Shown piece by piece: positions 1,443-39,077 of a DNA stretch of 64,000 nucleotides. Numbering within the stretch: the stretch's first letter is position 1; each line of letters begins with the position of its first letter. The stretch spans positions 1-64,000 of the forward strand of contig JAUZNX010000013.1 in the NCBI GenBank assembly GCA_030706745.1, written 5' to 3'. The DNA is from Bacteroidota bacterium (lineage in GTDB: Bacteria > Bacteroidota > Ignavibacteria > Palsa-1295). The translations under genes were made by a program, and so were the position numbers. The notes beneath the pieces were generated by a model. That model saw nothing but the letters and a program-made list of their open reading frames with translations, did no database searches and was not told where the DNA came from.

Positions 1443-1450
1443 TACCTTTG
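1443..1450 (+). promoter_or_regulatory. TAnnTTTG promoter element (TACCTTTG)
   Basis: This is an exact match to the Bacteroidota -7 consensus TAnnTTTG, nine bases before ATG 1460. A TTTTG at 1423-1427 could serve as the upstream element, but the spacing is shorter than the usual 19-20. Confidence 0.5.
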
Positions 1451-1459
1451 GGGAGAAAT

Positions 1460-8645: not shown

Positions 8646-9965
8646 TCAAAGTGCTTCGAGCGAGTCACGCAATCTCGGTAACATCGTCTCTATCTCGTCC
8701 ATTGATACGGCTCCGACGGAGAGTCGGAACCAGCCGGTATTCTCCTGAGAGCCGAACGCCTGGAAGGGCACAACAGCCAGTCGTGCCGATTCGAGCAAGT
8801 ATTTTCGGATATCTTCATTGGTGGCTAACGTCTTGCCACTTGGTGTGCGGCGGCCGATCAAGTCGAAACGGGCAGTAAGATAGATTGCGCCCATAGGAGT
8901 GATCGCATCGACCGGAAGTCCGCTACGCTGCATTGCCGTTAAACCATCATAGAGCGCATCGAGTCGGACCTCGATCTCGCGAATCATCAGTGAGTGATAT
9001 GTCTGGATCGCATCCTCATCCAGTAATAATGCTGCTGTTGCAAGTTGCTCGGCGCGAGGAGCCCATGCACCAATATGTCCCAGAATATTCGACATGGCCC
9101 CCGCGATGTCTGGAGGGGCGACACACCACCCAACCCGAACGCCAGTTGCTGCGAAGGCCTTGCTAATGCCATCCACGAAAATCGTATTTGATGCAAGTTC
9201 TGGCCGGAGTGAAACGGGATTATAGTGTACGGTATCACCGAAGGTCAACATCCAATAGACCTGATCGTACATAATGAATAGCGGGCGCTCATGGGACTCG
9301 CGCGACGCGTTTTCTTCGATCACCAGATCGCAGATTCCCTCCAACGCTTCGCGTGTGAATGCTGTCCCGGTTGGATTCAGTGGCGAACAAAGCGAAAGCA
9401 TCTTCGCGTCAGTGAGTGTTCCCTCGAGTATGTCGCGGGTAGGCAGAAACGCATCCTCCGCGCGACAGATTGCTGTCTGGTATGTTGCGCGGCTCAAGTG
9501 GGTATAGTGATTGTTGTTCCAGGAGGGAATTGGATAGACAACTTTGTCGCCTTCCTCGATCAATGCATTATACGTTGCATAGATCGCTGGCCGTGCGCCG
9601 CTGGTGATAATGAAGGATTCAATCGGGTAATCGAGACCTAGCCGGCGCTCGTAAAATGACTTCACCGCGCGGCGAAGCTGCATCATCCCATCCGAAGGAG
9701 GATAGTTCGTTTCGCCCGCATCGAGCATACCTTGGATCGAGGCGCGGAGCTCCGTAGGAATTGGAAAATATGCCGGATTGAAATCCCCGACGGTGAGATT
9801 GCAGATGGCGTGACCCTCGGCGACCATCGTGCGAATGTCAGCCGCAATCTTCAGTATTTCCGAGCCGATCAGTCCGCGAGCCATCGTGGAGATGGCGGAT
9901 GGTCGTTGAGCAAATTGTGGCTTTGTCATGGTAACAGGATCCATCTCGGCAAGTTCGTATCCCAT
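8646..9965 (-). CDS. PLP-dependent class I/II aminotransferase
   Basis: A fold-type I aminotransferase of up to 439 residues. Visible features are the N-terminal substrate-arm segment NLTVGDFNPAYFPIP, the YPPSDGMMQLRRAV motif, IITSGARPAIYATYNAL, the cofactor-binding CSPLNPTGTAFT, MYDQVYW, and the PLP Schiff-base lysine in FVDGISKAFAATGVRVGW. These are typical of aspartate / aromatic aminotransferase-like enzymes that move an amino group to 2-oxoglutarate; the exact substrate cannot be read from the sequence. The first in-frame ATG is at 9965, but ATGs at residues 8 and 13 (MDPVTMTKPQ) could serve. It is transcribed alone: 170 bases separate it from the operon on its upstream side, with a TATCTTTG box at 10020-10027 and a TATAAT-like hexamer closer to the start. 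Confidence 0.9.
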   Translation of the reverse strand: MGYELAEMDPVTMTKPQFAQRPSAISTMARGLIGSEILKIAADIRTMVAEGHAICNLTVGDFNPAYFPIPTELRASIQGMLDAGETNYPPSDGMMQLRRAVKSFYERRLGLDYPIESFIITSGARPAIYATYNALIEEGDKVVYPIPSWNNNHYTHLSRATYQTAICRAEDAFLPTRDILEGTLTDAKMLSLCSPLNPTGTAFTREALEGICDLVIEENASRESHERPLFIMYDQVYWMLTFGDTVHYNPVSLRPELASNTIFVDGISKAFAATGVRVGWCVAPPDIAGAMSNILGHIGAWAPRAEQLATAALLLDEDAIQTYHSLMIREIEVRLDALYDGLTAMQRSGLPVDAITPMGAIYLTARFDLIGRRTPSGKTLATNEDIRKYLLESARLAVVPFQAFGSQENTGWFRLSVGAVSMDEIETMLPRLRDSLEAL

Positions 9966-10019
9966 AATTTGTCCTTAGGCGCGCATTATAGAAAATGAGC
10001 AGTCATGCGCCGCTCCCTA

Positions 10020-10027
10020 CAAAGATA
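10020..10027 (-). promoter_or_regulatory. TAnnTTTG promoter element (TATCTTTG) for the aminotransferase
   Basis: An exact TAnnTTTG match on the minus strand, 54 bases before ATG 9965. A separate CTATAATGC lies nearer the gene, at about 9985-9993, so which one is used is uncertain. Confidence 0.4.
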
Positions 10028-10135
10028 TGTAGAAAAAAACAATGAACGATGGAAATCGATATTCTGATCTTTGAATTTGCGTTAACGCTAGGTTCGGATG
10101 TCTCATGAATTGGAAATCCTCTTCTTGCGCTTAAA

Positions 10136-11377
10136 TCAAGACGGACGTGAGAGGATCTTGGCGATGCCAGGGATGCTCAATTCGTCTGGCCAATTCCACT
10201 TTTCCTTCGCCTCTGAGAGTGCAGTAAGAAACCCATCTTGCGGGTGGAAGAGAAGGCGATGCATTGCGCGCGCTGTTCGTGTGCGCATTTGCGGCGATGT
10301 TCCCCGCATGTCAAACTCAGAATCTGGCAGTTGAAAGAGTGTATGCATCTGAAAGGTCGTTGCGCCCCGCCGCAGATATTCGAATGCAATCTTGCCAGTA
10401 ATAATGTTACCTGTCGCGGAAAGTGGCGCGGTGAGATGACTCTTCGAGAGCACACTCAGATTACGATCGCTGAGATCGGGACCGCCGTAAGCGACGCCAG
10501 TAGTACTTTCGTAGCTCTTGTTCGGATCGAAGAGCCGGTTGCCGTAAATCAGGAAGTCCGCGCGAGATAAACCATGTGCCGCTTCACAAGTCGCCAGCAT
10601 TTCGACTTGAAAATCATCGATTTCATCGCCTCTGTTCTGCGAGGCATTGAAGAGCTTCATGCCGAGCCGAATCTCAGTTCCATGAGAAGTCTCGTGTACG
10701 ATTCGTGGCACCGCATGAAGCCACCGGAGAATCGTCTCCCGTTGACTTGAAAAACTTTGATCGCCGGCGAGCGTTGGTGAAAAGTCCTTCTCGATCGGCA
10801 TAGGCAATTTGCCGCCATGATGGTTGCGCCATACATCAAATAGCCGTGAAGTCGTATATTCGTACTCTTTGACCCGCCATTCGGACTCGCCCGGTTTCGG
10901 AAGATGATATTTGACCGACGGAACGACGAGCATTGTACTCGGTGATCCAATCTCAAGTGATTCGCCAAAGAAGGTGAGATAGGCTTCGAACGTATCACTC
11001 CAACCTCGGCCTTTCCAGGTCACGGTCCAACCGCGTTCGCCACGCACCCCACTGCGCGTTCCAATGATTTCCTCGACCGTCATTTTTGTCGCCGGAATTG
11101 CCCAGGCCTTCATGGATTGCCCACCGAGTTCATCTTGCGCAATCAGTGTCTTTAGTACGACAAATCCAAGTCCAGCTTCTGCATCCCGCGCAACTTGGTT
11201 TGCATTGAGCGAAAGCTGCCCAGAGGCTTTGCCAAATGGGTTCTTTATCGGGAGTCTAGCATATTCACTGGCGAGTGAGAGGTGGTAGGTATCAAGGATA
11301 TAATCTTCGAGCGGACAAGGAAGTCCGCTCGCAAAGCGAAGGTAATCCTCCGCGATTCGGGATCGCCAGTCCATCAC
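10136..11377 (-). CDS. Dihydroorotate-dehydrogenase-like FMN TIM-barrel protein, function unknown
   Basis: The 413 residues keep the layout of the dihydroorotate dehydrogenase / PreA fold. An N-terminal barrel strand and phosphate loop read LPIKNPFGKASGQLSLNANQV (about 43-63) and GLGFVVLKTL; a mid-domain region reads ADFLIYGNRLFDP ... GVAYGGPDLSDRNL; and the FMN-phosphate motif is SATGNIITGKIAFEYLRRGATTF (about 330-352). It is longer than class 1 PyrD (about 310), with an insertion around residues 90-190. It lacks any iron-sulfur motif. Its start overlaps the stop of the DapA-like gene by four bases (ATGA), so it belongs to the sugar-uptake operon. A role in pyrimidine synthesis is unlikely in that context; oxidation or reduction of a catabolic intermediate is an inference. 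The substrate is unknown. Confidence 0.7.
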   Translation of the reverse strand: MMDWRSRIAEDYLRFASGLPCPLEDYILDTYHLSLASEYARLPIKNPFGKASGQLSLNANQVARDAEAGLGFVVLKTLIAQDELGGQSMKAWAIPATKMTVEEIIGTRSGVRGERGWTVTWKGRGWSDTFEAYLTFFGESLEIGSPSTMLVVPSVKYHLPKPGESEWRVKEYEYTTSRLFDVWRNHHGGKLPMPIEKDFSPTLAGDQSFSSQRETILRWLHAVPRIVHETSHGTEIRLGMKLFNASQNRGDEIDDFQVEMLATCEAAHGLSRADFLIYGNRLFDPNKSYESTTGVAYGGPDLSDRNLSVLSKSHLTAPLSATGNIITGKIAFEYLRRGATTFQMHTLFQLPDSEFDMRGTSPQMRTRTARAMHRLLFHPQDGFLTALSEAKEKWNWPDELSIPGIAKILSRPS

Positions 11378-12399
11378 CGCTTCAGCTCTATCGGAAGTGA
11401 GGCCATGAAATCTCCGACAAGATCGATTTCTGGGTCGCTGAGTTCAGGTCCCCATGGGTCGTGTGTGGCCTCTCGGCTAACGAGATCGAGCCACGAAAGC
11501 GTATAGAGCATCCGGCTGATATAGCCTTCAATGGGCGACGAAAACGTTGCCATCGCAAAGCGGTCGACCCATCCCGAACGATAGAGAAAATTCTGAGTAT
11601 CCTCCATGTAATAGGCTTTCATCATGTCGGATTGTAGCATCGCGAGTGCGCCGCCCATGCCGACAAGCGCTGCATCCGCGCCCATCATGAGAGAATAACC
11701 GAGAAAGCGGTCCTCGCCGGTAATCAGCAGTTGATTCGGATATTCTGATTTCAGTTGACCGGCCACAGCCTGAAATGTCATGACCGAATCGAGCGTTGCC
11801 ATCTTGATTCCGATCACATCGGGCAATTTGAAAAGCTCGCGCAAGACCCGGGGAGAATATGAGATACCACCTGCGGCTTCATACAAATAGAATAGAATAA
11901 TCGGCAAGCCTGCCTGAGCAATTTCGCGATGATACGCGACGATCGCTTCTTCCTGCTGAGGCATTGGCATTTCTCGGAAGCGAACGGGCGGATAACACAA
12001 GATGGCATCGGCACCCAATTCTTTAGCGTGCAACGCCATATTCCGAGCCCGAAACATATAAGCGTCATCACCAAAGACATGATTGCCATTTGACTCTGCC
12101 GAGCAACCGGCTCCGGCAATGATAATGCCCTTAGGCAGCGATTCTCGCCAGTGCGTGAGCACGTTCTCGCGCTCCTGCTCCGTCAGGTAGAGGCCGCGTC
12201 CTGTATGCGCCCAGACCGCAACGCCGGCCACCGGCATCTCCGACATGTAATCGGCCATGCGGGCATGCGAGTCATGATGGATGATTCGCTCTTCGGTGAA
12301 AGGTACGGGCAGCGCCGGGATTAGCTTATGGCGCAGGCTACCTCGAATATCTGTCATGTTCATAAGCTCATCGGTAATTGCGTGGCCTGGCCACGTCAC
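11374..12399 (-). CDS. Dihydrodipicolinate synthase (DapA)-family lyase/aldolase
   Basis: A class I aldolase-type (beta/alpha)8 barrel of up to 341 residues. It shows the family pattern HKLIPALPVPFTEE near the start, a GIIIAGAGCSAES strand, the ILFYLYEAAG segment holding the likely proton-relay Tyr, VIGIKMATLDS with the Schiff-base lysine, and LITGEDRFLGYSLMMGADAALVGMGGAL. Family members split or join pyruvate with an aldehyde, or dehydrate and decarboxylate sugar acids. Genuine DapA is not indicated: the YNxP motif is altered and no lysine-pathway genes are near. The first ATG (12399) is six bases from the enolase-superfamily stop; ATGs at 12363 and 12357 (MTDIRGSLRH) fit the family length better. 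It overlaps the next gene by ATGA. Confidence 0.82.
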   Translation of the reverse strand: MTWPGHAITDELMNMTDIRGSLRHKLIPALPVPFTEERIIHHDSHARMADYMSEMPVAGVAVWAHTGRGLYLTEQERENVLTHWRESLPKGIIIAGAGCSAESNGNHVFGDDAYMFRARNMALHAKELGADAILCYPPVRFREMPMPQQEEAIVAYHREIAQAGLPIILFYLYEAAGGISYSPRVLRELFKLPDVIGIKMATLDSVMTFQAVAGQLKSEYPNQLLITGEDRFLGYSLMMGADAALVGMGGALAMLQSDMMKAYYMEDTQNFLYRSGWVDRFAMATFSSPIEGYISRMLYTLSWLDLVSREATHDPWGPELSDPEIDLVGDFMASLPIELKR

Positions 12400-12405
12400 C
12401 TCGAT

Positions 12406-13557
12406 TTAGAATTCTTGCTTCCGGATAGTATATCGCTCGAGCTTCAAAGTATCAACTTCATATTCAATGGGTCCATGTTCCTGAGGTTCGTTCTCCAGAA
12501 GTCCGCGATCCGGAAAAACAATTGCCCCTCGATCTGAAATTGAAATCGGAGGATCGAGAATGTCATCGGTGAACCATCGTTCGCTCGCTTCGATGTCCGT
12601 AGGATAAACAAATCCGGGCAAAGAAGCAATCGCAAGTGCCTGCGCGCTCGCGATGCCAAGCTCAGGCATTGTTCCAAGCCAACAGCCGAGGCCAGCTTCG
12701 CGAGCACGGGCGAGTATACGGGTGGCGTTCCACAGTCCTCCGACTCGCTGAACTTTGATGTTGACAATAGAAGCCGCCGCTAAGCGAATGATCTCTTCGA
12801 GAGCAATCATCGAGTCCGCCGATTCATCCACGCAAATCGGAGTCTTCATTGCGAGCGCCAGTTCAGCCATATCGTTTAGCGCATTGGCAGCGAGCGGTTG
12901 TTCGAGCATCATCAGCCCAAAGCGGTCGAGCGAGAGAAGAATGTTACGGTGCGTTTCGAGATCATACGCGGCATTCGCGTCGACCATCAAAGGAATATCC
13001 CCAAATCGGCTGCGTATTGCGGTGAGTGGCACAATGTCCCATCCCGGCATGATCTTGATCTTGACCCGTTGATAGCCATCCTTCAGATAGAGAGCAATTC
13101 GATCGAGAAGCTCATCGATTGTATCGCAGATACCAACGGCAAGCCCCGACAGGATTTCAGCGCGAGGTGCGCCGAGCAACTCGCGAATCGTTGTGCCGAG
13201 CTTTGCAGCCTGCAGATGCCACACCGCCCCCTCGATACCCGCGCGTGCGAATGGTTCTTGCGTATACGCGCTCAGTAATTCCGCGTACTCGACCGGGTTT
13301 CGGATCGTGCGAGTGAAAAGATCGGGAATGAGGTCATTTGCGAGGGCATTCCACGTTGTCTCTGGCGTTTCGCTCGAATAAAACGATCCACTCATTGGCG
13401 ATGCTTCACCATAGCCAATGAAGCCACCAGAATGAAGCTCGAGAACGATGCTTTCTTTTTCAGAGACGATTCCGTTCGAAATTCGAAACGGCTCGCGCAT
13501 CGGCACGCGAACATGGCGCAAAAGTGCGCGCTCGACTCGATATCCCGTCTCTTCCAT
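12406..13557 (-). CDS. Enolase-superfamily enzyme (MLE/OSBS/N-acylamino-acid racemase subgroup)
   Basis: A 383-residue enolase-superfamily protein with a capping domain (about 1-130) and a barrel. The catalytic set of the muconate-lactonizing subgroup is intact: KIK in RVKIKIMPGWD (about 169-179), metal ligands Asp in MVDANAAY, Glu in MLEQPL and Asp in CVDESADS, and the second catalytic Lys in VNIKVQRVGG. The late WLGTMPELGIASAQALAIASL segment recalls o-succinylbenzoate synthase and N-succinylamino-acid racemase. Members of this subgroup abstract a proton alpha to a carboxylate (syn-elimination, racemisation or cycloisomerisation). No menaquinone genes are nearby, so a catabolic role with the adjacent DapA-like and flavoprotein genes is more likely than MenC. 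Its ATG overlaps the permease stop (TAATG). Confidence 0.82.
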   Translation of the reverse strand: MEETGYRVERALLRHVRVPMREPFRISNGIVSEKESIVLELHSGGFIGYGEASPMSGSFYSSETPETTWNALANDLIPDLFTRTIRNPVEYAELLSAYTQEPFARAGIEGAVWHLQAAKLGTTIRELLGAPRAEILSGLAVGICDTIDELLDRIALYLKDGYQRVKIKIMPGWDIVPLTAIRSRFGDIPLMVDANAAYDLETHRNILLSLDRFGLMMLEQPLAANALNDMAELALAMKTPICVDESADSMIALEEIIRLAAASIVNIKVQRVGGLWNATRILARAREAGLGCWLGTMPELGIASAQALAIASLPGFVYPTDIEASERWFTDDILDPPISISDRGAIVFPDRGLLENEPQEHGPIEYEVDTLKLERYTIRKQEF

Positions 13558-14384
13558 TATCCTTTTACTCCTGACCGCAGAAATGCCTCCGAGACAAACC
13601 GCTGCGTGAAAATGTAAAGTAAAATGATCGGCACCACAGCGATGAGCGTGCCAGCCATCAGTAGATCGAAGCGGAAATTATGCTGGACGGTTTGGAGCAC
13701 TGCCAGGCCGAATGTCAGAGGCATTTTGTCTTCAGATGAAAGGAAGAGGACCGGACTCAGCAAGTCATTCCATATTCCCATAAAAACGAATAGCCCGAGG
13801 ACAGCAAGCGCGGGCTTCGAAAGCGGAAGCAGAATGGTCAGAAAGAATCGAAATCGGCTGGCGCCATCGATCCGCGAAGCATCCTCTAATTCTTTTGGTA
13901 TCGATTCGAAGAATTGACGCAGCAAAAAGACGCCGAATGCGCCCGTTGCAAACGCGCCGCCGAAGAAATGCGGAATAATGAGTGAAGCGTGCGAATCGAG
14001 CCAGCCCAAATACCGCATGATAATGTAGACCGGGACCATCGTAACCTGAAATGGAATCATCATTGTCGAGATGACGATTGCAAACAACCAATTTTTGCCT
14101 CGGAATTCCATTCGCGCAAACGCGAATGCGGCGAGTGAAGCGGCGAAGAGTTCGCCAATCGTGCCAAGGACCGATATCTTGACTGAGTTGTAGAAGAACT
14201 GTCCGATTGGTAATCGTTGAAAGACGTCGGAGTAATTCGAAAAACGTGGCGGGGCGGGGAGCAGTCGGGGCGGAAAGACCGTGAGGGTCTCTGGAGTCTC
14301 AAGCGAAGTCGCGATCATCCAGAGGAATGGCGCGAGAATAAGCACGCCGGTAAGGCCGAGCAAGATGTATCGAAGCAGCTTCAT
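13557..14384 (-). CDS. Sugar ABC transporter permease (MalG/UgpE type)
   Basis: A polytopic inner-membrane protein of 275 residues with six predicted membrane helices, starting MKLLRYILLGLTGVLILAPF. The binding-protein-dependent transport motif, which contacts the ATPase, is ELEDASRIDGASRFRFFLTI followed by LPLSKPALAVLGLF. The ending TQRFVSEAFLRSGVKG is typical of the carbohydrate (CUT1) family. An in-frame ATG at 14399 exists, but ATG 14384 forms an ATGA overlap with the stop of the partner permease, so translational coupling favours it. No ATPase gene is in the operon, so a shared MsmX/UgpC-like ATPase encoded elsewhere is probably used. Confidence 0.93.
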   Translation of the reverse strand: MKLLRYILLGLTGVLILAPFLWMIATSLETPETLTVFPPRLLPAPPRFSNYSDVFQRLPIGQFFYNSVKISVLGTIGELFAASLAAFAFARMEFRGKNWLFAIVISTMMIPFQVTMVPVYIIMRYLGWLDSHASLIIPHFFGGAFATGAFGVFLLRQFFESIPKELEDASRIDGASRFRFFLTILLPLSKPALAVLGLFVFMGIWNDLLSPVLFLSSEDKMPLTFGLAVLQTVQHNFRFDLLMAGTLIAVVPIILLYIFTQRFVSEAFLRSGVKG

Positions 14385-15301
14385 GGCCGGAACACCCACC
14401 TCTTTCTTGCTCGGAATTGGAGGAAGGTGAAGACCAGTACAATCAGAAAGAAGAGATAGCCAAGCGCGGCGGCGCGACCAAGATCAAAGAATTCGAACGC
14501 CGTCTGCCAGATATAATAACTAAGTGTCAGGGTTGACGTGCCCGGCCCACCATTCGTCATCACATACGTTTGTTCGAAGACCTGAAACGCGCCGATTGTT
14601 GTAACGATGAGTACAAAGAAGAGTACTGGCGAAAGTAGTGGGAGCGTGATCGTTCGGAAGCGGCGGAACGCGCCGGCGCCATCTAAACGGGCGGCCTCGT
14701 GATAGTCGGAAGGCACTTGCGCAAGTCCTGCGAGCAGGATCATCATGTTGTAACCCGCATTTTTCCAGACGCTCATAAGCGCAATGGCCGGCATGGCCCA
14801 ATGTGGATCGCGAAGCCATTGTGGGCCGGAAATGCCGAGCAGTGAGAGAAGATAGTTCAGCAAACCCACGTCACCATTGTAGAGCCATGACCAAATAATT
14901 GCCGCGGCGACTGTCGAGGTTACCACAGGCAGGAAATAGATCGTTCGGAATAGTGCGATGCCTCGCGTCTTCTTCTCGATGAGCGAGGCCAGCGCGAGAG
15001 AAACTCCGATACTGACAGGGACGTACAGCAAGGCATAATAGAATGTTTGCTCCGCGACCTGCCAGAAGAGTTGCGACGAGAGTAGACTCTGATAGTTTGC
15101 CAAGCCAATGAGTTTCGGCGCAAGGCCGATCTCATAATGCGTCAGCGAGAGACCGAGGGAAGCGATGACAGGCCCAATGGTGAAGACCATGAGGCCGATC
15201 AAAATTGGAGCAAGATACCAATAGGCGATGGAACTGCCACTTCGCTTCCGCCGATCTGTAAGGCTGGATCGTAGCGGCTTTTGACTGGAAGGGCCGATCA
15301 T
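14381..15301 (-). CDS. Sugar ABC transporter permease (MalF/UgpA type)
   Basis: A 306-residue inner-membrane permease. After a basic cytoplasmic N-terminus (TDRRKRSGSS) come six predicted helices beginning YWYLAPILIGLMVFTIGPVI. The EAA-type loop is DYHEAARLDGAGAFRRFRTI followed by TLPLLSPVLFF, and the conserved ending NGGPGTSTLTLSYYIWQTAF ... GRAAALGYLFFLIVL is characteristic of CUT1 family MalF-like subunits. An earlier ATG at 15364 would overlap the upstream receptor gene by 59 bases; ATG 15301 lies four bases after the receptor stop and begins just before the basic segment, so it is preferred. It pairs with the downstream MalG-like subunit to form the membrane channel. Confidence 0.92.
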   Translation of the reverse strand: MIGPSSQKPLRSSLTDRRKRSGSSIAYWYLAPILIGLMVFTIGPVIASLGLSLTHYEIGLAPKLIGLANYQSLLSSQLFWQVAEQTFYYALLYVPVSIGVSLALASLIEKKTRGIALFRTIYFLPVVTSTVAAAIIWSWLYNGDVGLLNYLLSLLGISGPQWLRDPHWAMPAIALMSVWKNAGYNMMILLAGLAQVPSDYHEAARLDGAGAFRRFRTITLPLLSPVLFFVLIVTTIGAFQVFEQTYVMTNGGPGTSTLTLSYYIWQTAFEFFDLGRAAALGYLFFLIVLVFTFLQFRARKRWVFRP

Positions 15302-15305
15302 CCCA

Positions 15306-16640
15306 TTATTTGTTGCGCGCAAGGACTTCATTGATCTTCTCATCGATGGCCTTGCAACCTTCAATAACCGATTCGCGGCCGGCCATCATGTCTTGCATGT
15401 GAGGATCGAACCCATGGTCGCGCCACTCCTGCCACCCAGGTGTGATCAGCGTGAATACATGACCACTCGTATTAATTGCCAGCAGAGCGCGACGATTGCA
15501 CTTTGGGTCGCCTTCCAAATATTCTGACGAGTATGCGAGGGGTTTATAGAGCGGCATGGCCGAGCGATGTAGCTCATTGACGCCCTTCGTGGTGGGCAAA
15601 GTCACAATCCACTTGATCAGCTCCCAGGCGGAATCAGGATGCTCGCACTGTCTTGCGATGCCGAACGCTTGTCCGTTCTGGCGGTCAAGCAAGCCGACAG
15701 TGCCTTTCGGTGGAGCCGCCACATCCCATTTGAACGTCGCGTGAGCAAACTCGGTCTTGGCAAAGTCGATCATCAGCATCATTGCCGCGTGGCCTTGTAA
15801 GAATCGCTGGCCTAAGGCCTGTGATGGATCCGGCGGCGGGGCAACGTGCTCCTTCTGAATCAAATCGACGTAGGATTGGACCGCGGCAATCGTCGCTGGC
15901 TCGGACATTGCACCGTGCGTCCGATCGTCGGAGAGAATCTTGCCGCCATTGGAATAAATGTACGTGTCTATGCCTGTAAAGAGACCATCATCGAGCAAGA
16001 GGCCCCAGGTCTTCGAGCCGGGATCCGCGGAATTGTTGGTCAGTCTGCGTGCGGCGTCCAGCATGGTTGCGTACGTCCATGTGGAATCCGGATATTTCAC
16101 GCGGGCCTTATCGAAGAGGTCCTTATTATAAAAGAGCGCTGTGACACCGCCCGAAGCCGGCATTGCCATCAGCGGCGCCGATGGAATGCCGCCGTTGTGC
16201 CAGACAGTAAAAAACTGCGTGAAGAAGTCAGAGTCATGCAGATCGCGGTGAAAGAATGTATCGAGCGGAATTGTGTAGTTGCGTTTGAAGAGCTCCTGCC
16301 CATACCAATCGTCAATGAGCACAACATCGCCGAGCGCCATACCACTTGCCGCTGCTGATTCGATCTTGGTCGTGTACAGTCCATACGGAATCGCTTCGAT
16401 CTCGACATCAATAGCGGGATGCGCCTTCATAAACGGAACGGCAACATCTTGTTTCCACAATTCCTGCTGATCGAGATTGAAGTGGACGAGCTTGATGTGA
16501 GTCTTACCCGATGTGGATTGCTCAGTGCGCCCGCAACCAATCGCGCCAAGCAGCAAGGAGATGCAAAGGAGCGCGAGTGCAGCGATGTTTGCCTTGCCAA
16601 CCGGTCTGCGTTGCTGCTGACCCTCATCGAACGCTCGCAC
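15306..16640 (-). CDS. Sugar-binding lipoprotein of the ABC importer, probable internal GTG start
   Basis: This is the C-terminal 444 residues of the long frame shared with recQ. It contains a lipoprotein signal: basic RRPVGK, hydrophobic ANIAALALLCISLL and lipobox LLGAIGC, with the lipidated Cys about 35 residues after the GTG. The rest is a family 1 extracellular solute-binding domain (IKLVHFNLDQQELWKQDVAV, MPASGGVTALFYNKDLFDKA, FLQGHAAMMLMIDFAKTEF, FGIARQCEHPDSAWELIKWI). It would capture a carbohydrate-like ligand outside the inner membrane for the two permeases that follow four bases later. GTG 16640 is the best start that leaves a normal signal peptide; a GAGGA lies about 10 bases before it. 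Translation as a RecQ fusion would bury the signal, so independent initiation is inferred. The ligand is unknown. Confidence 0.75.
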   Translation of the reverse strand: MRAFDEGQQQRRPVGKANIAALALLCISLLLGAIGCGRTEQSTSGKTHIKLVHFNLDQQELWKQDVAVPFMKAHPAIDVEIEAIPYGLYTTKIESAAASGMALGDVVLIDDWYGQELFKRNYTIPLDTFFHRDLHDSDFFTQFFTVWHNGGIPSAPLMAMPASGGVTALFYNKDLFDKARVKYPDSTWTYATMLDAARRLTNNSADPGSKTWGLLLDDGLFTGIDTYIYSNGGKILSDDRTHGAMSEPATIAAVQSYVDLIQKEHVAPPPDPSQALGQRFLQGHAAMMLMIDFAKTEFAHATFKWDVAAPPKGTVGLLDRQNGQAFGIARQCEHPDSAWELIKWIVTLPTTKGVNELHRSAMPLYKPLAYSSEYLEGDPKCNRRALLAINTSGHVFTLITPGWQEWRDHGFDPHMQDMMAGRESVIEGCKAIDEKINEVLARNK

Positions 16641-18770
16641 GAAACGGATTTCCTCGAAAGAGTAGCCCTCGCCGAGATGCTCTTTTACTACCGTTAGTGT
16701 TGCGACACCAAGTTGTTTGAACGCCTCGCGGATGGGAGCAATCTTCCGGTCCTCCACAAGTCCCGTGAGCGATGTGATGTCTCCGTTCTGCAATAGGGAT
16801 GCAAGATGTCCGGCAATCGTACTGACAGCGAGCGAACGCATGTCAGAAATACCTCTCAGATTCAGGCCTTGTTTGAAGAACCGGAGCGTTTCATACGCAC
16901 TATCACCACCTTTGGGCTCACGCGGTGCATGGGATACCACGCCGAGTCGTGTAAGACTTGGATTGCTCTCGCGAAATTTCCGAATACACGCCAGGAACGG
17001 GATGCCGTATTGGCGCGACTTTGTTTCGCCGATGCCGGATATCGTCCGGAATTCACCACCATCATTTGGCACGCGAGCAGCGATCTCTTTAAGCGTATAG
17101 TCATTGAAGATGACATAGGGCGGAATGTTCTGTTGCTCCGCCAGGCTATGCCGGAGTCTGCGCAAGTCTTCGAAGAGTGCGCGGTTGAGTGCCGGCAGGT
17201 CTACGGCTTCGCGCGTTTCATGCGCCAGTTCTTTGGGTCTGTTCAGAGTTACTGTGCGGTTGTTTCGAAGGACTTCCCATCCTTTCGGTGTCACCTTCAC
17301 TACGCTGAAATGGTCGTGATCCTGAATAATGAGTCCTTGCCGACGAAGCTCATTTGTGAAATGCCGCCATTCGGTCTTGGTATGCTCATGGCCGACGCCA
17401 TAGGTAGAGAGTTCATGGTGCCGGAAGTCCTGAATCTTTTGACCGCGAGATCCTTTGAGCACATCGATGATATGCGACGCGCCAAAATTCTGCCCTACGC
17501 GGACGACACAGGAAAGGAACATCTGCGCGAGCCGAGTGCCATCGAAAGTCTCAACATTCTGGGTCGAGAGACAATTATCACACGAGCCACAATTCGCATC
17601 CGGATATGCTTCGCCGAAATATGCGAGCATTGCCTTGCGGCGGCATGTATTGACCTCGGCAAAATCGACGAGTTTGTCGAGTTCTTCGATCGAGCGCGTT
17701 CGCTCCTCGGGTGATTTGTCATCAAAGAACTGCATATACTTCTGCCGGTCACCCTGCGCGTAGAACATGATGCAATCGCTCGCAAGCCCATCGCGGCCAG
17801 CGCGGCCGGTCTCTTGATAGTACGCCGGGATATTTTTGGCAATATCATAATGGAGAACAAATCGCACGTTCGGCTTATCGATGCCCATGCCAAACGCGAT
17901 TGTTGCGCAGATAATATCGACTTTATCACGAACAAATAGCTCTTGTACCTTTGTACGGACGGCCTTATCGAGACCGGCGTGATAGGCCATGGCCTTGTGT
18001 CCTCTCGCTTTGAGCGAAGCCGCCATTCGCTCAGTGCCCTCGCGGCTCAAACAATAGATGATCCCGGATTCACCCTTTCTGTGCGCGAGATAGCCTTCGA
18101 GTTGGGCCATGGCGCCGCGCTTCGGCCAGACTTGATAGATCAAGTTCTTGCGATCGAAGCTTGCGTTGAACTTCTTCGTATCAGCGCGCAAATGCAATTG
18201 ATCGAGAATGTCGGTAACGACACGGCTTGTCGCCGTGGCGGTGACGGCCATGATTGGGGCCGAAGGAAACCGCTCGCGCAACACATGAAGATTGCGGTAG
18301 TCCGCTCGAAAGTCGTGCCCCCACTCGCTGATGCAGTGTGCTTCGTCAACGACCGATAGCGAGACATTCAGCTCGGAGAGGAAGTCCAGGAAGCCCGGGA
18401 CCGGAAATCGCTCTGGCGCAATATAGAGTAACTTGTATTCTCCCGCACGCAATCGACGAACCCGGTCCGAGATTTCGCGGCCCTCAAGCGAGCTATTCAA
18501 GAACGTGGCGGGGATGCCGGTCGCATTCAGAGCATCGACCTGATCCTTCATCAGCGCGATGAGCGGACTGATGACGATCGTGATGCCGGGCAGCATCGCT
18601 GCGGGAAGTTGGAAGCAAAGTGATTTGCCGGCGCCCGTCGGCATCAGCGCGAAGACATCGCTCTTCGCGAGTACAGCTTCAACGATCTCGCGCTGAAGCG
18701 GGCGAAATTCCGAAAACCCAAAATACTGTTTAAGGGATGCAACCATGTTGTGGAAAGTGCTGACATCCAA
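15306..18770 (-). CDS. recQ: RecQ-family DNA helicase whose frame continues into a sugar-binding lipoprotein
   Basis: Residues 1 to about 716 form a complete RecQ: Walker A MPTGAGKSLCFQLPA (about 43-57), DEAH box VVDEAHCISEWGHDF, motif VI YYQETGRAGRDG, a four-Cys zinc site (CRRKAMLAYF ... NCGSCDNC), a winged-helix RQC domain, an HRDC domain and a C-terminal helical tail ending SFEEIRFVRAF. RecQ unwinds DNA 3' to 5' in recombination and fork repair in the cytoplasm. No stop codon follows: the same frame runs through a lipoprotein signal peptide (lipobox LLGAIGC at about 742-748) into a solute-binding domain, total 1154 residues. A helicase with an internal export signal makes no topological sense, so this is either two products from one frame, a recent loss of the recQ stop, or a base error in the sequence. 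It begins 36 bases after the hsdMS stop. Confidence 0.85.
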   Translation of the reverse strand: MDVSTFHNMVASLKQYFGFSEFRPLQREIVEAVLAKSDVFALMPTGAGKSLCFQLPAAMLPGITIVISPLIALMKDQVDALNATGIPATFLNSSLEGREISDRVRRLRAGEYKLLYIAPERFPVPGFLDFLSELNVSLSVVDEAHCISEWGHDFRADYRNLHVLRERFPSAPIMAVTATATSRVVTDILDQLHLRADTKKFNASFDRKNLIYQVWPKRGAMAQLEGYLAHRKGESGIIYCLSREGTERMAASLKARGHKAMAYHAGLDKAVRTKVQELFVRDKVDIICATIAFGMGIDKPNVRFVLHYDIAKNIPAYYQETGRAGRDGLASDCIMFYAQGDRQKYMQFFDDKSPEERTRSIEELDKLVDFAEVNTCRRKAMLAYFGEAYPDANCGSCDNCLSTQNVETFDGTRLAQMFLSCVVRVGQNFGASHIIDVLKGSRGQKIQDFRHHELSTYGVGHEHTKTEWRHFTNELRRQGLIIQDHDHFSVVKVTPKGWEVLRNNRTVTLNRPKELAHETREAVDLPALNRALFEDLRRLRHSLAEQQNIPPYVIFNDYTLKEIAARVPNDGGEFRTISGIGETKSRQYGIPFLACIRKFRESNPSLTRLGVVSHAPREPKGGDSAYETLRFFKQGLNLRGISDMRSLAVSTIAGHLASLLQNGDITSLTGLVEDRKIAPIREAFKQLGVATLTVVKEHLGEGYSFEEIRFVRAFDEGQQQRRPVGKANIAALALLCISLLLGAIGCGRTEQSTSGKTHIKLVHFNLDQQELWKQDVAVPFMKAHPAIDVEIEAIPYGLYTTKIESAAASGMALGDVVLIDDWYGQELFKRNYTIPLDTFFHRDLHDSDFFTQFFTVWHNGGIPSAPLMAMPASGGVTALFYNKDLFDKARVKYPDSTWTYATMLDAARRLTNNSADPGSKTWGLLLDDGLFTGIDTYIYSNGGKILSDDRTHGAMSEPATIAAVQSYVDLIQKEHVAPPPDPSQALGQRFLQGHAAMMLMIDFAKTEFAHATFKWDVAAPPKGTVGLLDRQNGQAFGIARQCEHPDSAWELIKWIVTLPTTKGVNELHRSAMPLYKPLAYSSEYLEGDPKCNRRALLAINTSGHVFTLITPGWQEWRDHGFDPHMQDMMAGRESVIEGCKAIDEKINEVLARNK

Positions 18771-18806: not shown

Positions 18807-21314
18807 CTATTCCCCCCACAGCCCCGCAACCCGCGCCTTGATCTTCCCCTCCATCCGCGCAACAAGCCCCTTCAGCATCTCCATCTCCGCCCGCTCCTGT
18901 TCGAGGCGCGCGACGATGGTTTGCTGCTCGGCGAGAGGGGGAAGATAGATGCTTTCTTTAGCTAACAACGAAGCACTAATGTTTGCTTGACCGATAGCGC
19001 GAGACGCCTTTGTCTTCAATTGTTTTTGCCACCAATCGAGATTCATGTGAAAGTTCAAGAAGTGCGGGTCCACTTTCAACTTATCGGGAATAAGGCGGAC
19101 AAGATAGGATGCTGCGATATAATCACCATCGAGTTCAAAGATGCCGGTTCTTCCTACGTGTTCAATACTGTTTGTGCGATTAAAGAGAATATCCTCGCGC
19201 CTGAGCTGATACTTCTTAAATACTTGGGGTGTGATGTCGGCGCACTTCATACTGCCGTTATCAACCGTGCGGCCATTGACTATCTCATTCATTCTAAACG
19301 TCTTGTAGCCGACGCCGTCCGTGTTGAGCGCCTCGGAGATACCGTAATCAAACTTCTTGCAGACTTGGCTTAGCTGTACGATCTCCCACTTCGGATCGAT
19401 CTCGATTTCGGGCTTGTAGTTCGCAAGGATGGCGCGGGCGCCTTCGATCATCTTGCGGTAGCGCTCTAACTCGGCCACCAACGCCTCCTGCACGGGGAGC
19501 GGCGGAAGGGGGATTTCAGTCTCGCCAAGGCTCTTTAAGTTTATTCCAGCCTGTCCGACCCACTTGTTGCATTTAGCGAGGAAGTAGCCCGATTGAAAAA
19601 GATAGTGAAGAACATATGCCAAGAAGCGGGGTGATAGGAGAGCACGCTCAACCCGTATTCTAGTCATGTGATTAGAGTAAACAGCATCATAATCCTTGTC
19701 GATCAAGCACGTCTTGCCTACCAACTCTTTGCTGTTGGTGTTGTTGAATAGCACGTCATCGGCTTTGAGCGTGTATTCTGGTTTCGCTTCTGACCTTGAA
19801 ATGTATTTTGAACCCTCAAATGTAAGTTCTCCTTTCGACGTAATGTTCATTGGTCGAAGATGAATCACATCACCTGTCTCTTTTTCAGAATTGCCCGAGG
19901 CAAATCCTGACTTCATCTCCGTAACCAACTCTTCCAATTTCAACCGAGGCCATCTTTCGTTTCCGGTGATTACCGCATCTCGATACCGGTCCATCGAGAG
20001 ATTGTAATCGCCGGAGGCGGTGATTTTCTCTTTCGGGACGAGGAGGGCCTGGATTCCAGCTTTCGCGGGAATGACATGTTTGGTTTTGTACTCTTTGATT
20101 ACTTCCAGCGCGGAAGGTAATTCGTCCTTCTCGGGTGTGGGCCTTCGTTGAGCGCCAATTTCGAAGCCATCGTTTCCAATCTTGACGAAGAGAATATGCT
20201 CGCTGCGGCGGGCGATTTCTTTGTCGATAAAGAGGATGCTCGTCTTGACTCCGGAATAGGGCTGGAAGACCCCAGCCGGGAGCGAGACGACGGCATAGAG
20301 CAAATGTTCATCGACGAGCCACTTTCGCAAATCTTTATAGGCATTGCCACTTTGGAAAATAATCCCTTCGGGCACGATGATACCGGCCTTGCCTTGCGGC
20401 GTTAGGTGCTCCAGGATGTAATCGACGAACAGCACTTCGCTACGGCTTGCGGCAATACGGAATTTGCCGTGCGGACGAATGCCGCCTTTCGGCGACATGA
20501 AGGGCGGGTTCGCCATGATGACGTCGGCCTTGTCGTCCCAGCGGTCTTCGCTGGTGAGAGTATCATACTCTTGAATGGCGGGATCGGCGAAGCCATGCAG
20601 ATACAGATTGACCAGCGACATACGGACCATGTCGGGCGAGATGTCATAGCCGACGAGGTTCTTTCCAAGCTCTTTGCGGTCTTTGGTCGTGAGCAGATCG
20701 CCTTCGCGCTTATTCGTATTCGTCTTCAGGATATACTTGAATGCCGCGATGAGGAACCCGGCGGTGCCGCAGGCCGGATCGAGAATGCGATCGGTCTTCA
20801 TCGGCCCGACCACCTGCACGATGAAATCAATAATGTGGCGCGGAGTTCGGAATTGCCCCGCATCGCCTTGCGAGCCAAGGACCGAGAGGAGATATTCATA
20901 CGCATCTCCCAGCATCTCGCTGTGATCGTAACTGAACTCGTTGATGACGCTAAGAAACAGGCGTAGTGTTTCGGGGTCTCGATATGGCAGGAATGCATTC
21001 TTGAAAATGTCGCGAAAGAGCGGCGGCAGATTCGGATTGAGCTGCATTTCCGCGAGTGCATCCCCATAAAGCCCGATGAGTTCGTGTCCGCCGATCTTGG
21101 TGGAATAGACGCTCGTCCACGCATACTTTTTGTACTTGCCGACGAAGAACGTGGCTTTGCCGCCCAACCGCTCGGCTTGCTGGTCCATGTCGTGCATGAA
21201 CTTGTAGATGAGGGCCAGCGTGATCTGTTCGACCTGCGATTTCGGGTCGGGGACCTTTCCGACCAGGACATCACGAGCCTTGTCGATTCGATTTTTAGTG
21301 GCGGAGTCCAGCAT
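18807..21314 (-). CDS. Fused type I restriction-modification HsdM-HsdS (methylase plus specificity subunit)
   Basis: The 835-residue protein joins two subunits that are normally separate. Residues 1 to about 445 are an N6-adenine methyltransferase: N-terminal helical bundle, AdoMet motif I DPACGTAGFLIAAF (about 179-192), motif IV VIMANPPFMSPKGG and the following VPEGIIF. Residues about 455-835 hold two target-recognition domains, each ending in the conserved helical linker (IPLPPLPVQEALVAELERYR and IYLPPLAEQQTIVARLEQER), so the recognised site should be bipartite. It would methylate adenine in the host DNA and guide the HsdR nuclease. The linker at about residues 413-421 is VIPAKAGIQ, encoded by a REP-like repeat (20050-20076). 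The separate hsdR gene lies 290 bases upstream across an inverted-repeat element. Confidence 0.93.
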   Translation of the reverse strand: MLDSATKNRIDKARDVLVGKVPDPKSQVEQITLALIYKFMHDMDQQAERLGGKATFFVGKYKKYAWTSVYSTKIGGHELIGLYGDALAEMQLNPNLPPLFRDIFKNAFLPYRDPETLRLFLSVINEFSYDHSEMLGDAYEYLLSVLGSQGDAGQFRTPRHIIDFIVQVVGPMKTDRILDPACGTAGFLIAAFKYILKTNTNKREGDLLTTKDRKELGKNLVGYDISPDMVRMSLVNLYLHGFADPAIQEYDTLTSEDRWDDKADVIMANPPFMSPKGGIRPHGKFRIAASRSEVLFVDYILEHLTPQGKAGIIVPEGIIFQSGNAYKDLRKWLVDEHLLYAVVSLPAGVFQPYSGVKTSILFIDKEIARRSEHILFVKIGNDGFEIGAQRRPTPEKDELPSALEVIKEYKTKHVIPAKAGIQALLVPKEKITASGDYNLSMDRYRDAVITGNERWPRLKLEELVTEMKSGFASGNSEKETGDVIHLRPMNITSKGELTFEGSKYISRSEAKPEYTLKADDVLFNNTNSKELVGKTCLIDKDYDAVYSNHMTRIRVERALLSPRFLAYVLHYLFQSGYFLAKCNKWVGQAGINLKSLGETEIPLPPLPVQEALVAELERYRKMIEGARAILANYKPEIEIDPKWEIVQLSQVCKKFDYGISEALNTDGVGYKTFRMNEIVNGRTVDNGSMKCADITPQVFKKYQLRREDILFNRTNSIEHVGRTGIFELDGDYIAASYLVRLIPDKLKVDPHFLNFHMNLDWWQKQLKTKASRAIGQANISASLLAKESIYLPPLAEQQTIVARLEQERAEMEMLKGLVARMEGKIKARVAGLWGE
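20050..20076 (-). repeat. REP-like palindromic repeat inside hsdMS (VIPAKAGIQ peptide)
   Basis: About 27 bases with half-sites GGATTCCAGC and GCGGGAATGA around a TTTC centre match the short interspersed palindrome that recurs in many bacterial genomes and, in frame, encodes VIPAKAGIQ. It sits at the junction of the methylase and specificity parts. I know this repeat mainly from Proteobacteria and some other phyla; that is recollection, not a search. Confidence 0.7.
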
Positions 21315-21336
21315 GGATTGTGTGTGGTAAAAACAT

Positions 21337-21588
21337 CGCCCTTTCAGGGCTTCAAAATCTATTAAACGTCTGCTTACCCAGGGTTCCGCTTCGCCGCACC
21401 ATAGGTGCGGCTCGCTCCACCCTGGGCTGCGAGTACTTCGCCCCTTCGGGGCTGGGTCAGCTCGCCAGACGCTGTTGTGGCCGAAGCATTCAGCCGCGGA
21501 GCGGCGGAGTACTCGCAGCCCAGGGTGGAGGCCGAAGGCCGGAACCCTGGGTCGCGCAACCCAAACACACCTAAGCCCTGAAAGGGCG
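21337..21588. repeat. 252-bp composite inverted-repeat element between hsdMS and hsdR
   Basis: The outer ends are perfect 16-bp inverted repeats (CGCCCTTTCAGGGCTT at 21337-21352; its complement at 21573-21588). Inside are a 13-bp pair (ACCCAGGGTTCCG at 21377-21389 with 21540-21552) and a 28-bp pair with one mismatch (21415-21442 with 21503-21530). Small local hairpins fill the rest (CCGCACC/GGTGCGG, GCCCC/GGGGC). No convincing gene lies within. The nested symmetry suggests a mobile palindromic element or a long RNA cruciform. It also fills the 290-base gap between the two restriction genes. Confidence 0.8.
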
Positions 21589-21604
21589 GTGTCCCGGAAT
21601 GCGA

Positions 21605-24112
21605 TTACGCATTTGGCAGAAAATTATTGAGCGATACATAGGTATCGATGTACTGCGGAATAATGTCGCGGTATCCGTTCAATGCTTCGACATCGGAGAG
21701 GCGCAACATCGGATTTGTCGCGAGCCTTCCGTATTCCTTGTTCCGCATGATCTCCTGCACTTCGGGATCGGTCAGATAGGCTTTGAACGCGCGGTTGATT
21801 GCTCCATAATACTTTGGGTCCGGCTTCTCAACCTGAATGAAGCTTTCCAATTCCAGATCTAGCAATTCTTCTCGCGATGGGATTGCCTTCTTCTGGAACA
21901 CATGATCGAGCAATTCCTCGATCGTTGGCTTGCGGTCCAGCCCCAACGCCTTACGGATTTTTTCGAGATTGAAATACTCTTCGGGCTTTTCGAAAATCTC
22001 CCTTCGAATATAATCCTTGACGACGGCAAGATTGCCGCTCATGTAGTTATCCGTGACCACCGGATCGTTCTTGACGGTCTCCTCGAACTTCTGGAAGAGC
22101 ATCCGGTCGGGCTTCAGCCCTTCGAGTCCAACCTGAATTTCCTTCAAATCCTTGAGCGGATCGAGCCGTTCGCTGACATACGACCCTTCCGGATGCCTCG
22201 GCGGTGGCTCACCTTCCGGTGGCCGGTCGCTGCGCGGCAGCGGTAGTTTCAGCCGCTCGTCGTAATCGAACTTATGCTCGAAGAACTCGACATTGCCGAA
22301 GAAATCGAAGAGGCGGAACGTGGTCTTCGGCTCGGTGGTCACATCGCGCTCGCCGTTCGCAAGCTTCACCTCATACTTGAAATTGTACTTCCGGGTGCCG
22401 CGGCCTTTCATCTGCACGAATTCCGTTGGCGAGAAGATCGGACGCATGAGGCAGAGGTTCAGAATGTCCTGACAATCGTATCCGGTCGTCATCATTCCAA
22501 CCGTCACGCAGACGCGCGTCTTCGATGTCTCGTATCCTTCTACGAGTTTGGATTCCCCGTTGAGCTTATTGTTTGCAAACTGCTTGGTCATACCCTGCGC
22601 GCCCGTAATGCGCGAGGTAACCTGTAACGCGAAATCGGACCGGTAGCGGCCGGGCCACGCCTTATCGGCAATCGCATTCAGCACTTCCGTAATTTTCATT
22701 GCGTGGTTCTGGCTCACGCAAAACATGATGGTCTTTCCGATTTCGCCGGTGATCGGATCTTTCAGGGCATGTTCCAGGAAGGTCTCGCAAAATACGCGGT
22801 TGGTCTTATCGCTGAAGAATTTCTTCTCAAAGTCCCTATTTACGAAGTTCTCCGTGACTTCATCGCCGTTATCGGCGTCATAGACAACCGCATAGCCTTC
22901 ATCGGAAAGCAATTGTGTCGTGATCTCCGTTCGAGCATCGAGCACATAGGGATTGACGAGATAGCCCTCTTTGACGCCATCGAGGAGGGAGTATCGGAAT
23001 GTCGGATCGCCGCTCTCGCATCCGAAGGTCTTATAGGTGTCGAGGATCTGTCGCTTCTCCAGTTCGGCGGGTGAGCCTCTGAGAAGTGCTTCCGTATCGG
23101 TATTCTTGATGTAGTCTTTTGGTGTTGCGGTCAAACCCAGCTTGAAGCCGACGAAAGGCTCGAAGACGGCACGGGCATTGCCTCCGATGGAGCGGTGCGC
23201 TTCGTCCGAAATGACGAGATCGAAATCGAGCGGTGAAAAATCACGGAAGCGAGTGAGCAGGCTCTGCACGGTCGTCACGACGATTGCGGCATCTCGCCAG
23301 TCCTCACGATTCTGTTTCCAGACCTTCGTAGTGTAGTCGTTCTTGAGATAGTCCTTGAAATTCTTCTCCGCCTGATCTTCCAACTCCAACCGATCGACGA
23401 GGAAGAGAACTCTGGTTGCGTTGCCAGTTCGCAGAAAGAGCTTGATGATGGCCGCTGCGGTCAGTGTCTTGCCGGTGCCGGTCGCCATCTCGAACAGGAA
23501 TCGGTCGTTGCCTTTCTTGACAGAGTCCTGTAATGCCTGGACCGCTTTGATCTGATAGGGTCGCAAGAGCCGAAGCTTCTGGCTCTCGATAAATTCTTTC
23601 CGCGTCTTCTCGTCGAGATACGAAGGATTCTGAGCATAGAGAGGGTTCTGGGTGATGGCAATGTAATCCTCGCCAACCACTTCGCGGATGAGCGCGTGAC
23701 GGTCCGGTTTGAACTGCTCCTTTAGCGAGAAGTCGGATTGATCGGGAAACTTGGAAATGATCTGCGGATTTCCTGCTTCCAAATCCCAGAGGTAGTGGAT
23801 ATTTCCGTTCGTGAGAATGATGTACCGAGCATTCTTGCCCTTCGCGTAACCGCGTGCCTGCTCCTTGCCATCGAGTGGGTTTCGCTCTTCGCGCTTGGCT
23901 TCGACCACGCAAAGCGCATCACCACGCTTATCGAGCAGAAGGTAGTCGATGAAGCCGTTCTTCGTGTGTTCGAAGTCATCGCCGACGGCATCGATTTTTA
24001 CAGAGGCTTCGAGCGCGATGTTCGCTTTCCCCTCCGCCGTGTCGAAGAACTGCCAACCGGCGTTATCCAGCAAGTGGTTGACTTTGATTCGGGCACGGGC
24101 TTCTGTGGACAT
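21605..24112 (-). CDS. hsdR: Type I restriction enzyme R subunit (EcoEI-like)
   Basis: An 835-residue HsdR. The N-terminal PD-(D/E)xK nuclease shows FIDYLLLDKRGDALCVVEAKREE (about 53-75) with the catalytic Asp and the ExK pair. The motor follows: LRPYQIKAVQAL, Walker A FEMATGTGKTLTAAA (about 209-223), DEAH box LVISDEAHRSIGG, GLTATP, and motif VI MKGRGTRKYN. The C-terminal part resembles the EcoEI R-subunit C-terminal domain. The complex with HsdMS would translocate unmethylated DNA and cut it at a distance, as defence against phage and foreign DNA. Start ATG 24112 is the first in frame and gives a normal N-terminus. Transcription probably begins in the 359-base gap upstream and reads through the inverted-repeat element into hsdMS. 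Confidence 0.94.
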   Translation of the reverse strand: MSTEARARIKVNHLLDNAGWQFFDTAEGKANIALEASVKIDAVGDDFEHTKNGFIDYLLLDKRGDALCVVEAKREERNPLDGKEQARGYAKGKNARYIILTNGNIHYLWDLEAGNPQIISKFPDQSDFSLKEQFKPDRHALIREVVGEDYIAITQNPLYAQNPSYLDEKTRKEFIESQKLRLLRPYQIKAVQALQDSVKKGNDRFLFEMATGTGKTLTAAAIIKLFLRTGNATRVLFLVDRLELEDQAEKNFKDYLKNDYTTKVWKQNREDWRDAAIVVTTVQSLLTRFRDFSPLDFDLVISDEAHRSIGGNARAVFEPFVGFKLGLTATPKDYIKNTDTEALLRGSPAELEKRQILDTYKTFGCESGDPTFRYSLLDGVKEGYLVNPYVLDARTEITTQLLSDEGYAVVYDADNGDEVTENFVNRDFEKKFFSDKTNRVFCETFLEHALKDPITGEIGKTIMFCVSQNHAMKITEVLNAIADKAWPGRYRSDFALQVTSRITGAQGMTKQFANNKLNGESKLVEGYETSKTRVCVTVGMMTTGYDCQDILNLCLMRPIFSPTEFVQMKGRGTRKYNFKYEVKLANGERDVTTEPKTTFRLFDFFGNVEFFEHKFDYDERLKLPLPRSDRPPEGEPPPRHPEGSYVSERLDPLKDLKEIQVGLEGLKPDRMLFQKFEETVKNDPVVTDNYMSGNLAVVKDYIRREIFEKPEEYFNLEKIRKALGLDRKPTIEELLDHVFQKKAIPSREELLDLELESFIQVEKPDPKYYGAINRAFKAYLTDPEVQEIMRNKEYGRLATNPMLRLSDVEALNGYRDIIPQYIDTYVSLNNFLPNA

Positions 24113-33868: not shown

Positions 33869-35275
33869 TTATCTATCCACGATTGCTGCCATCAATTCCG
33901 CTTCGGCAACGACTTGCCCTTCAACTTTTGCGATGCCGGACATGACAAATGTTTTGCCTCGGTTCCGCAGCATTGTGAGCTCAAAAATTAATTGATCGCC
34001 GGGAGTAACAGGCTTGCGAAATTTTGCCTTGTCAATTGCCATGAAAAGAATCAGCTTCTTCTCCGGATCGGCAATCGCATTCAGGAGAAGCATCCCACCT
34101 GTTTGAGCCATTGCCTCAAGGATGAGTACTCCGGGCATTACTGGTTTGCCGGGGAAATGACCCATGAAGAACGGCTCATTATAGGTCACGTTCTTTAGTC
34201 CTACGATCTGCTCGTGCCCTTGTGTGATATCCATCGATAGAATCCGATCAACGAGCAACATCGGGTATCGATGGGGCATGATCCGCTCTATTGCGGTAAT
34301 GTCAAACACATAGCCGTTCCTTGCGGAAGGATTGTACTTCTGCACAAGCGCCTTCTTTTCGTATAATTTCCGAAGTTTACGCGCAAATTCGACGTTGGAC
34401 GCGTGACCGGGTCGGGCAGCGAGGATCTGCGCCTGGAGTGGTGCTCCTGCTAATGCTAGATCGCCCAGAAGGTCCAACAACTTATGCCTGGCGGGCTCAT
34501 TCTTATAGTGAAGTTGCTTATCGTTGAGCATGCCATTTGATCCCAGGATCACGCTATCTCGAATACCAAGCCGCGTACTCAGCGCCCGAAGTGCCTCTGC
34601 GTCCAGCTCCCGATCGACAATTACGATCGCATTGTCGACATTCCCGCCTTTTATGAGCCCCTGCTCATAAAGCATTTCCACCTCATGGAGGAAGCAGAAT
34701 GTCCGCGCTTTCGCAAATTCGGTCACAAATTCCCGCTCCAGCGAGAAGAGGCCAGTGTGCTGACTCCCGAGAACCGGGTTATTATAGTCGATCATCACCG
34801 TTACGCGATAATCATCCGGCAGAGGCAGCGCGACGATTTCTACTTGGGCTGCCTCATTACGAAATGAGACAGTCTCATCAACGACAAGATACTTTCGCGG
34901 CGCTGTTTGTTCCGTAAATCCTGCCCGAAGCAGGGCCTCGACGTAGGGCTCGGCACTCCCATCGCCGATCGGTGGCTCGTTCGCTGTCAGTTCAATTCGA
35001 ATGTTGTCGATTTCCAGACCGACGACCGCCGCGAGAACGTGTTCAACTGTATGGACGCTTGCGTTATTGTGCGTCAGCGTCGTCCCACGCGAAATATCGG
35101 AAACATAATCGACGAGTGCCGGAATCTCAGGTTTTCCGGGCAGGTCGCTCCTCACAAAGCGGATGCCGTAGCCCTCCGGGGCCGGATGGAATTCGATCGA
35201 GCTGGTATTTCCGGTATGAAGCCCGATTCCTTCGAATTTGGAGACGTGTGAAATTGTCCGTTCGTTAGCGCGCAT
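33869..35275 (-). CDS. lpxC/fabZ: Bifunctional LpxC deacetylase / FabZ dehydratase
   Basis: A 468-residue fusion. Residues 1 to about 310 are LpxC, the zinc deacetylase committing UDP-3-O-acyl-GlcNAc to lipid [10 protein letters not shown], the zinc His in [18 protein letters not shown] (about 78), the GGNVDNAIV loop, and [12 protein letters not shown] with the second His and Asp. Residues about 325-468 are FabZ, the 3-hydroxyacyl-ACP dehydratase of fatty acid synthesis: [14 protein letters not shown] with catalytic His, and [20 protein letters not shown] with catalytic Glu. The fusion is characteristic of Bacteroidota/Chlorobiota and supports the phylum assignment. It couples acyl-chain supply to lipid A. 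The promoter must lie in the 97-base divergent gap to the oxidoreductase; a TTATAC hexamer sits just before the start. Confidence 0.97.
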
Positions 35276-39073: not shown

Positions 39074-39077
39074 CGTG

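Follow-up and report, generated by a model that had tools for sequence, protein, structure and literature searches.

The window, i.e. the whole stretch of 64,000 nucleotides analysed here, carries on its minus strand a single stop-free frame (18770-15306, 1154 aa) in which a RecQ helicase is followed by a solute-binding protein (SBP). The initial annotation had reported this ORF at 15306-18770, leaving the strand unstated, and had described it as RecQ and SBP, both complete, sharing one frame with the export signal in its interior; the ORF proved real, and Pfam and NCBIfam agreed with that description. The mechanical ORF opens at TTG 18770, which is probably not the true start. Since conservation with a second species of the same genus (G001; the window genome is G000) begins at ATG 18746 (residue 9), this ATG is the likely start, giving a product of 1146 aa. 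The frame comprises the following features:

15306 to 18746, minus strand: recQ::SBP fusion gene, from the conserved ATG 18746; 1146 aa, 128 kDa (128.3)
16629 to 18746, minus strand: RecQ part with DEAD, Helicase_C, RecQ_Zn_bind, RQC, HRDC and HTH_40 domains and the conserved tail EEIRFVRAF
16638 to 16640, minus strand: GTG (V711), last canonical in-frame start ahead of the export signal; candidate internal start
16581 to 16628, minus strand: junction linker DEGQQQRRPVGKANIA, 16 codons, fast-evolving, omega about 0.5
16536 to 16586, minus strand: hydrophobic segment of the internal lipoprotein signal, IAALALLCISLLLGAIG; the protein's most hydrophobic 19-aa stretch
16584 to 16586, minus strand: lost SBP start codon, ATC (GTT in G001), aligned with the ATG of the G002 SBP
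16533 to 16535, minus strand: lipobox cysteine C746, predicted Lgt/Lsp site; residue 36 from GTG 16640
15306 to 16535, minus strand: mature family-1 solute-binding domain, 409 aa, 45.6 kDa, omega 0.033

The RecQ part matched the NCBIfam recQ model TIGR01389 over its full length (716.9 bits against a curated cut-off of 640.2, residues 12-598). Pfam placed DEAD at residues 23-187, Helicase_C at 222-328, RecQ_Zn_bind at 340-401, RQC at 406-514, HRDC at 530-596 and HTH_40 at 624-712. Judged by this domain content and by the purifying selection acting on it, the N-terminal part is a RecQ helicase. PADLOC matches to DpdF reflect general RecQ-helicase similarity and were not counted as evidence of a defence role. 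In the same frame, the whole SBP_bac_1 domain (PF01547) was found at residues 771-1056 with 93.9 bits (cut-off 26), and the solved structures nearest to it are mostly sugar or oligosaccharide receptors (PDB 5f7v, 6rjy and 1eu8). Two complete proteins and an internal signal thus occupy one frame, as in a polyprotein. An AlphaFold model of residues 611-1154 had a mean pLDDT of 43.5 and was confident for HTH_40 only.

The receptor heads an ABC operon (window 8646-16535, minus strand) with two permeases and four enzyme-like genes, including:

14381 to 15364, minus strand: first ABC permease (UgpA/MalF-like), found downstream of the SBP in every SBP-bearing member of the genus; start uncertain
13557 to 14399, minus strand: second ABC permease
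12406 to 13557, minus strand: enolase-superfamily enzyme (MR_MLE; menC/N-acylamino-acid-racemase-like)

The corresponding operon of four relatives (G002 and G004-G006) encodes the two permeases, the enolase-superfamily enzyme, a DHDPS-like enzyme, a 413-aa protein and an aminotransferase. No ATPase gene was present among the genes scanned in the ABC operon, which may share an ATPase from elsewhere. On the other side of the fusion gene, a type I restriction system (18807-24112, minus strand) lies between recQ and a histidine kinase gene; it consists of hsdR and a single ORF that joins the methylase to two specificity domains (HsdM-HsdS fusion), and is absent at that place in G001. Elsewhere in the window, one ORF joins LpxC and FabZ-like (FabA) domains (33869-35275, minus strand), and another (1448-5698, plus strand) encodes a large secreted protein that combines an IgGFc_binding domain and HYDIN/ASH-like Ig domains with a Por_Secre_tail sorting domain.

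The same uninterrupted fusion was found in G001, with 86% amino acid identity over residues 2-1154 and 78% nucleotide identity, dS being about 1.6, so that synonymous sites are near saturation. Omega was 0.044 for the helicase core, 0.067 for RQC-HRDC, 0.085 for HTH_40 and 0.033 for the SBP, and the internal gaps between the two sequences (14 and 5 codons) were all whole-codon. Therefore, both parts encode functional proteins and the frame has survived a long divergence; values of 0.03-0.09 outside the junction at this dS are those of a fused arrangement kept by selection, as in a conserved polyprotein. The RecQ of both species branched normally within the genus, with no acceleration. This evidence for the fusion comes from the genome sequences of two species. 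That a missing stop or an indel near the junction had been produced by assembly or sequencing, as the initial annotation had suspected, is a reading to which we give almost no credence: the window genome is in 30 contigs, but an identically framed junction is present in another species at such a distance. The loss of the recQ stop, also proposed there, was seen in both species.

Comparison of the junction in the other five members of the genus (G002-G006), which the initial annotation had called for, gave a different arrangement from that of G001. In all five, recQ is apart from this SBP; four (G002, G004, G005 and G006) have the two genes at different loci, and G003 has recQ and no SBP match. 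Among 294 genomes of the class, no strong RecQ match other than the two fusions lay in a frame longer than 894 aa. In G003, G004 and G006, the standalone recQ ends only a few codons past the FDE-type tail, and in G005 it runs slightly further. Alone among the relatives, the recQ of G002 reads on past this tail (locus L116:6303-8984, minus strand), being joined in frame after FVRAFDE to a DUF559 domain (PF04480, 104.8 bits). It resembles recQ::SBP in having the same recQ, the same tail and an in-frame C-terminal partner, and differs in that the partner is DUF559 and no export signal was seen; by its sequence it is a second, distinct C-terminal fusion of the gene within the genus.

In the four relatives with a standalone SBP, that gene lies directly downstream of a CN_hydrolase gene and heads the same operon. 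In the window, this neighbour was found on the far side of the breakpoint:

39066 to 39965, plus strand: CN_hydrolase gene, which directly precedes the SBP in relatives

Here and in G001 it has identical new neighbours, a phosphoesterase and an M16 peptidase gene, and one rearrangement common to both species is therefore indicated. On this comparison of gene order, the fusion is the product of a rearrangement that separated the SBP from the CN_hydrolase gene. One inversion spanning about 16.6-40 kb would fit both breakpoints and was considered as a candidate event; in none of the relatives examined was recQ close to the SBP operon or adjacent to the phosphoesterase gene that here lies 3' of the CN_hydrolase gene. 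Standalone SBPs have their own ATG about 18-20 codons ahead of the lipobox Cys, and the position of the lost start codon listed above comes from an alignment of signal peptides that is only approximate.

The peptide across the RecQ-SBP junction is FVRAFDEGQQQR. After the RecQ tail and before the hydrophobic segment lies the linker of about 16 codons, 6 of which are a single step away from a stop. In a neutral-stop simulation, the probability that the linker would remain stop-free in both lineages was about 0.04-0.11, which is weakly supportive and does not discriminate a precursor from an internal start. The sequence ATGA is indeed present at 16628, where the initial annotation had taken it as the mark of two ancestrally overlapping genes. 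This interpretation did not hold, since ATGA is here formed by the RecQ Asp-Glu codons GAT GAR, which are general in recQ and recur in standalone genes that stop a few codons later, and since the two genes are non-adjacent in relatives. A real ATGA overlap occurs in G004-G006, but between the CN_hydrolase gene and the SBP. The same codons bear on a programmed -1 frameshift, by which RecQ would end at the TGA of GATGAG (codon 715) and regain its native length. The codon position of the -1 TGA is shared by the two species, but as a by-product of GAT GAR it is also seen in standalone recQs, and no slippery heptamer (X_XXY_YYZ) lies within usable range in either genome, making such a frameshift highly improbable.

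The hydrophobic segment and the lipobox are retained in both fusions (LLLGAIGC and LLLGAYGC) and their Cys aligns with that of standalone SBPs, as expected of a lipoprotein, being conserved in G001, G002, G004, G005 and G006. Counted from the conserved ATG, this Cys is residue 738, so that the signal is not N-terminal; it would be so solely if translation began at GTG 16640, with the Cys at 36. The initial annotation had named this GTG as an internal start. Its position was correct, and it is the only plausible codon for that role: downstream of V711, neither G000 nor G001 has an ATG, GTG or TTG before the hydrophobic segment, a TTG at 739 in G000 falling within the segment itself. With no other start before the segment, the SBP can be made either through translation of recQ or from GTG 16640.

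Two products might be made, a RecQ-SBP read-through and most of the SBP by internal initiation at this GTG, in which case the recQ stop could not return because the SBP start would be nested in the recQ tail. The SBP would then start with MRAFDEGQQQRRPVGKAN, a long but ordinary signal-peptide n-region that is positively charged. The GTG is found in both species, the Cys follows as residue 36, a GAGG lies 11 nt 5' of the GTG in G000, and the site lies in a 20-nt run identical between the two genomes, one of five runs of at least that length in the fusion. Given the GTG in both species and this run, a weak internal start is conceivable. Against it, the Val codon is also GTG in some standalone recQs (G002 and G003), and the Shine-Dalgarno match is not conserved (energy of -5.9 in G000 vs -2.9 in G001). 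The predicted mRNA structure at the GTG (-8.8 and -11.4 kcal/mol in the two species) was similar to in-gene means (-9.4 and -9.8) and unlike that of ATG starts (mean -4.2 kcal/mol, n = 17, a rough yardstick as this set was taken from ORF calls). Four-fold sites are 47% identical overall between the two species, so three identical ones in a row are unremarkable, and no promoter-like site was matched on the minus strand between 16400 and 19000. Internal initiation, one of the explanations offered by the initial annotation, is conceivable, but by its sequence the GTG resembles any ordinary codon inside a gene, and we consider internal initiation rather unlikely as the main source of the SBP.

We lean, by a modest degree, towards a genuine, selected gene fusion that is read as one precursor and cut at the lipobox. 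Comparison with relatives shows that a chromosomal rearrangement in the common ancestor of the two species cut the SBP off from the upstream CN_hydrolase gene and fused its signal-peptide region in frame to recQ, at a point a few codons short of the recQ stop. Because the frame has no stop, ribosomes on recQ would continue into the SBP and give a 128 kDa precursor. The RecQ part would fold in the cytoplasm, the internal signal would insert N-in/C-out via the Sec translocon, Lgt would modify C746 and signal peptidase II would cut before it. This would yield a normal 46 kDa lipoprotein receptor serving the ABC permeases, and an 83 kDa RecQ ending in a hydrophobic tail, which would either stay at the membrane or be released afterwards through an intramembrane protease. 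The genome encodes LspA, Lgt and two site-2-type (M50) proteases. Receptors are usually abundant, and a 1:1 helicase-to-receptor ratio would be odd, which counts against the precursor.

The fusion might alternatively stay uncut, with RecQ tethered to the membrane, the receptor outside and the location or activity of the helicase coupled to the transporter. Conservation of the fused frame, purifying selection on both parts and a segment hydrophobic enough for anchoring would all suit a stable fusion, but the lipobox and Cys are retained as in standalone SBPs and LspA and Lgt are encoded, so cleavage is expected and we regard the uncut form as very unlikely. With a cleaved precursor, a cytosolic DNA-repair helicase would be the N-terminal part of a lipoprotein precursor, and every such RecQ would begin at the membrane, to be released or held there by lipoprotein maturation; we propose this tentatively, at somewhat less than an even chance. 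A second, shorter RecQ (C3:293264, 584 aa frame) is encoded in the genome and in other members of the genus, and may relax the demands on the fused one.

In Bradyrhizobium, fbcH encodes cytochrome b and cytochrome c1 as one precursor that is separated by signal peptidase. As here, two proteins share one bacterial frame and the second has an internal signal peptide cleavable by signal peptidase; both fbcH products, however, are envelope subunits of one complex, whereas in recQ::SBP a cytoplasmic DNA helicase comes first, the second protein is unrelated and cleavage would be expected from signal peptidase II. Compared with bacterial RecQ proteins with an HTH_40 tail (TIGR01389; PF14493), the fusion has all domains, above cut-off, but lacks the stop and gains a signal and a receptor. 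With family-1 solute-binding lipoproteins (PF01547) it shares sequence family, lipobox and permease neighbours, and it differs in having lost its own start codon and in the internal position of the signal. For hepatitis C virus (HCV) core-E1, PMC5402940 describes a cytosolic protein followed by an internal signal, which stays signal-anchored after the cut until released by signal-peptide peptidase; that system is viral, is located in the ER, uses the ER signal peptidase and has demonstrated processing, whereas processing of recQ::SBP is predicted. A partial literature search found no described RecQ-receptor fusion and nothing specific on RecQ fusions or internal bacterial signals.

Gene fusions normally unite proteins of the same compartment, whereas here a cytosolic DNA enzyme and an exported receptor are joined across an intact export signal. 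The fusion has been retained through a large divergence in two species, while relatives have the genes separate, and it provides an example of a gene whose own start codon was lost after fusion. It can serve as a natural experiment on the ability of the Sec/lipoprotein pathway to handle a signal lying over 700 residues into the chain, and on the ability of bacteria to tolerate or exploit a helicase with a membrane tail.
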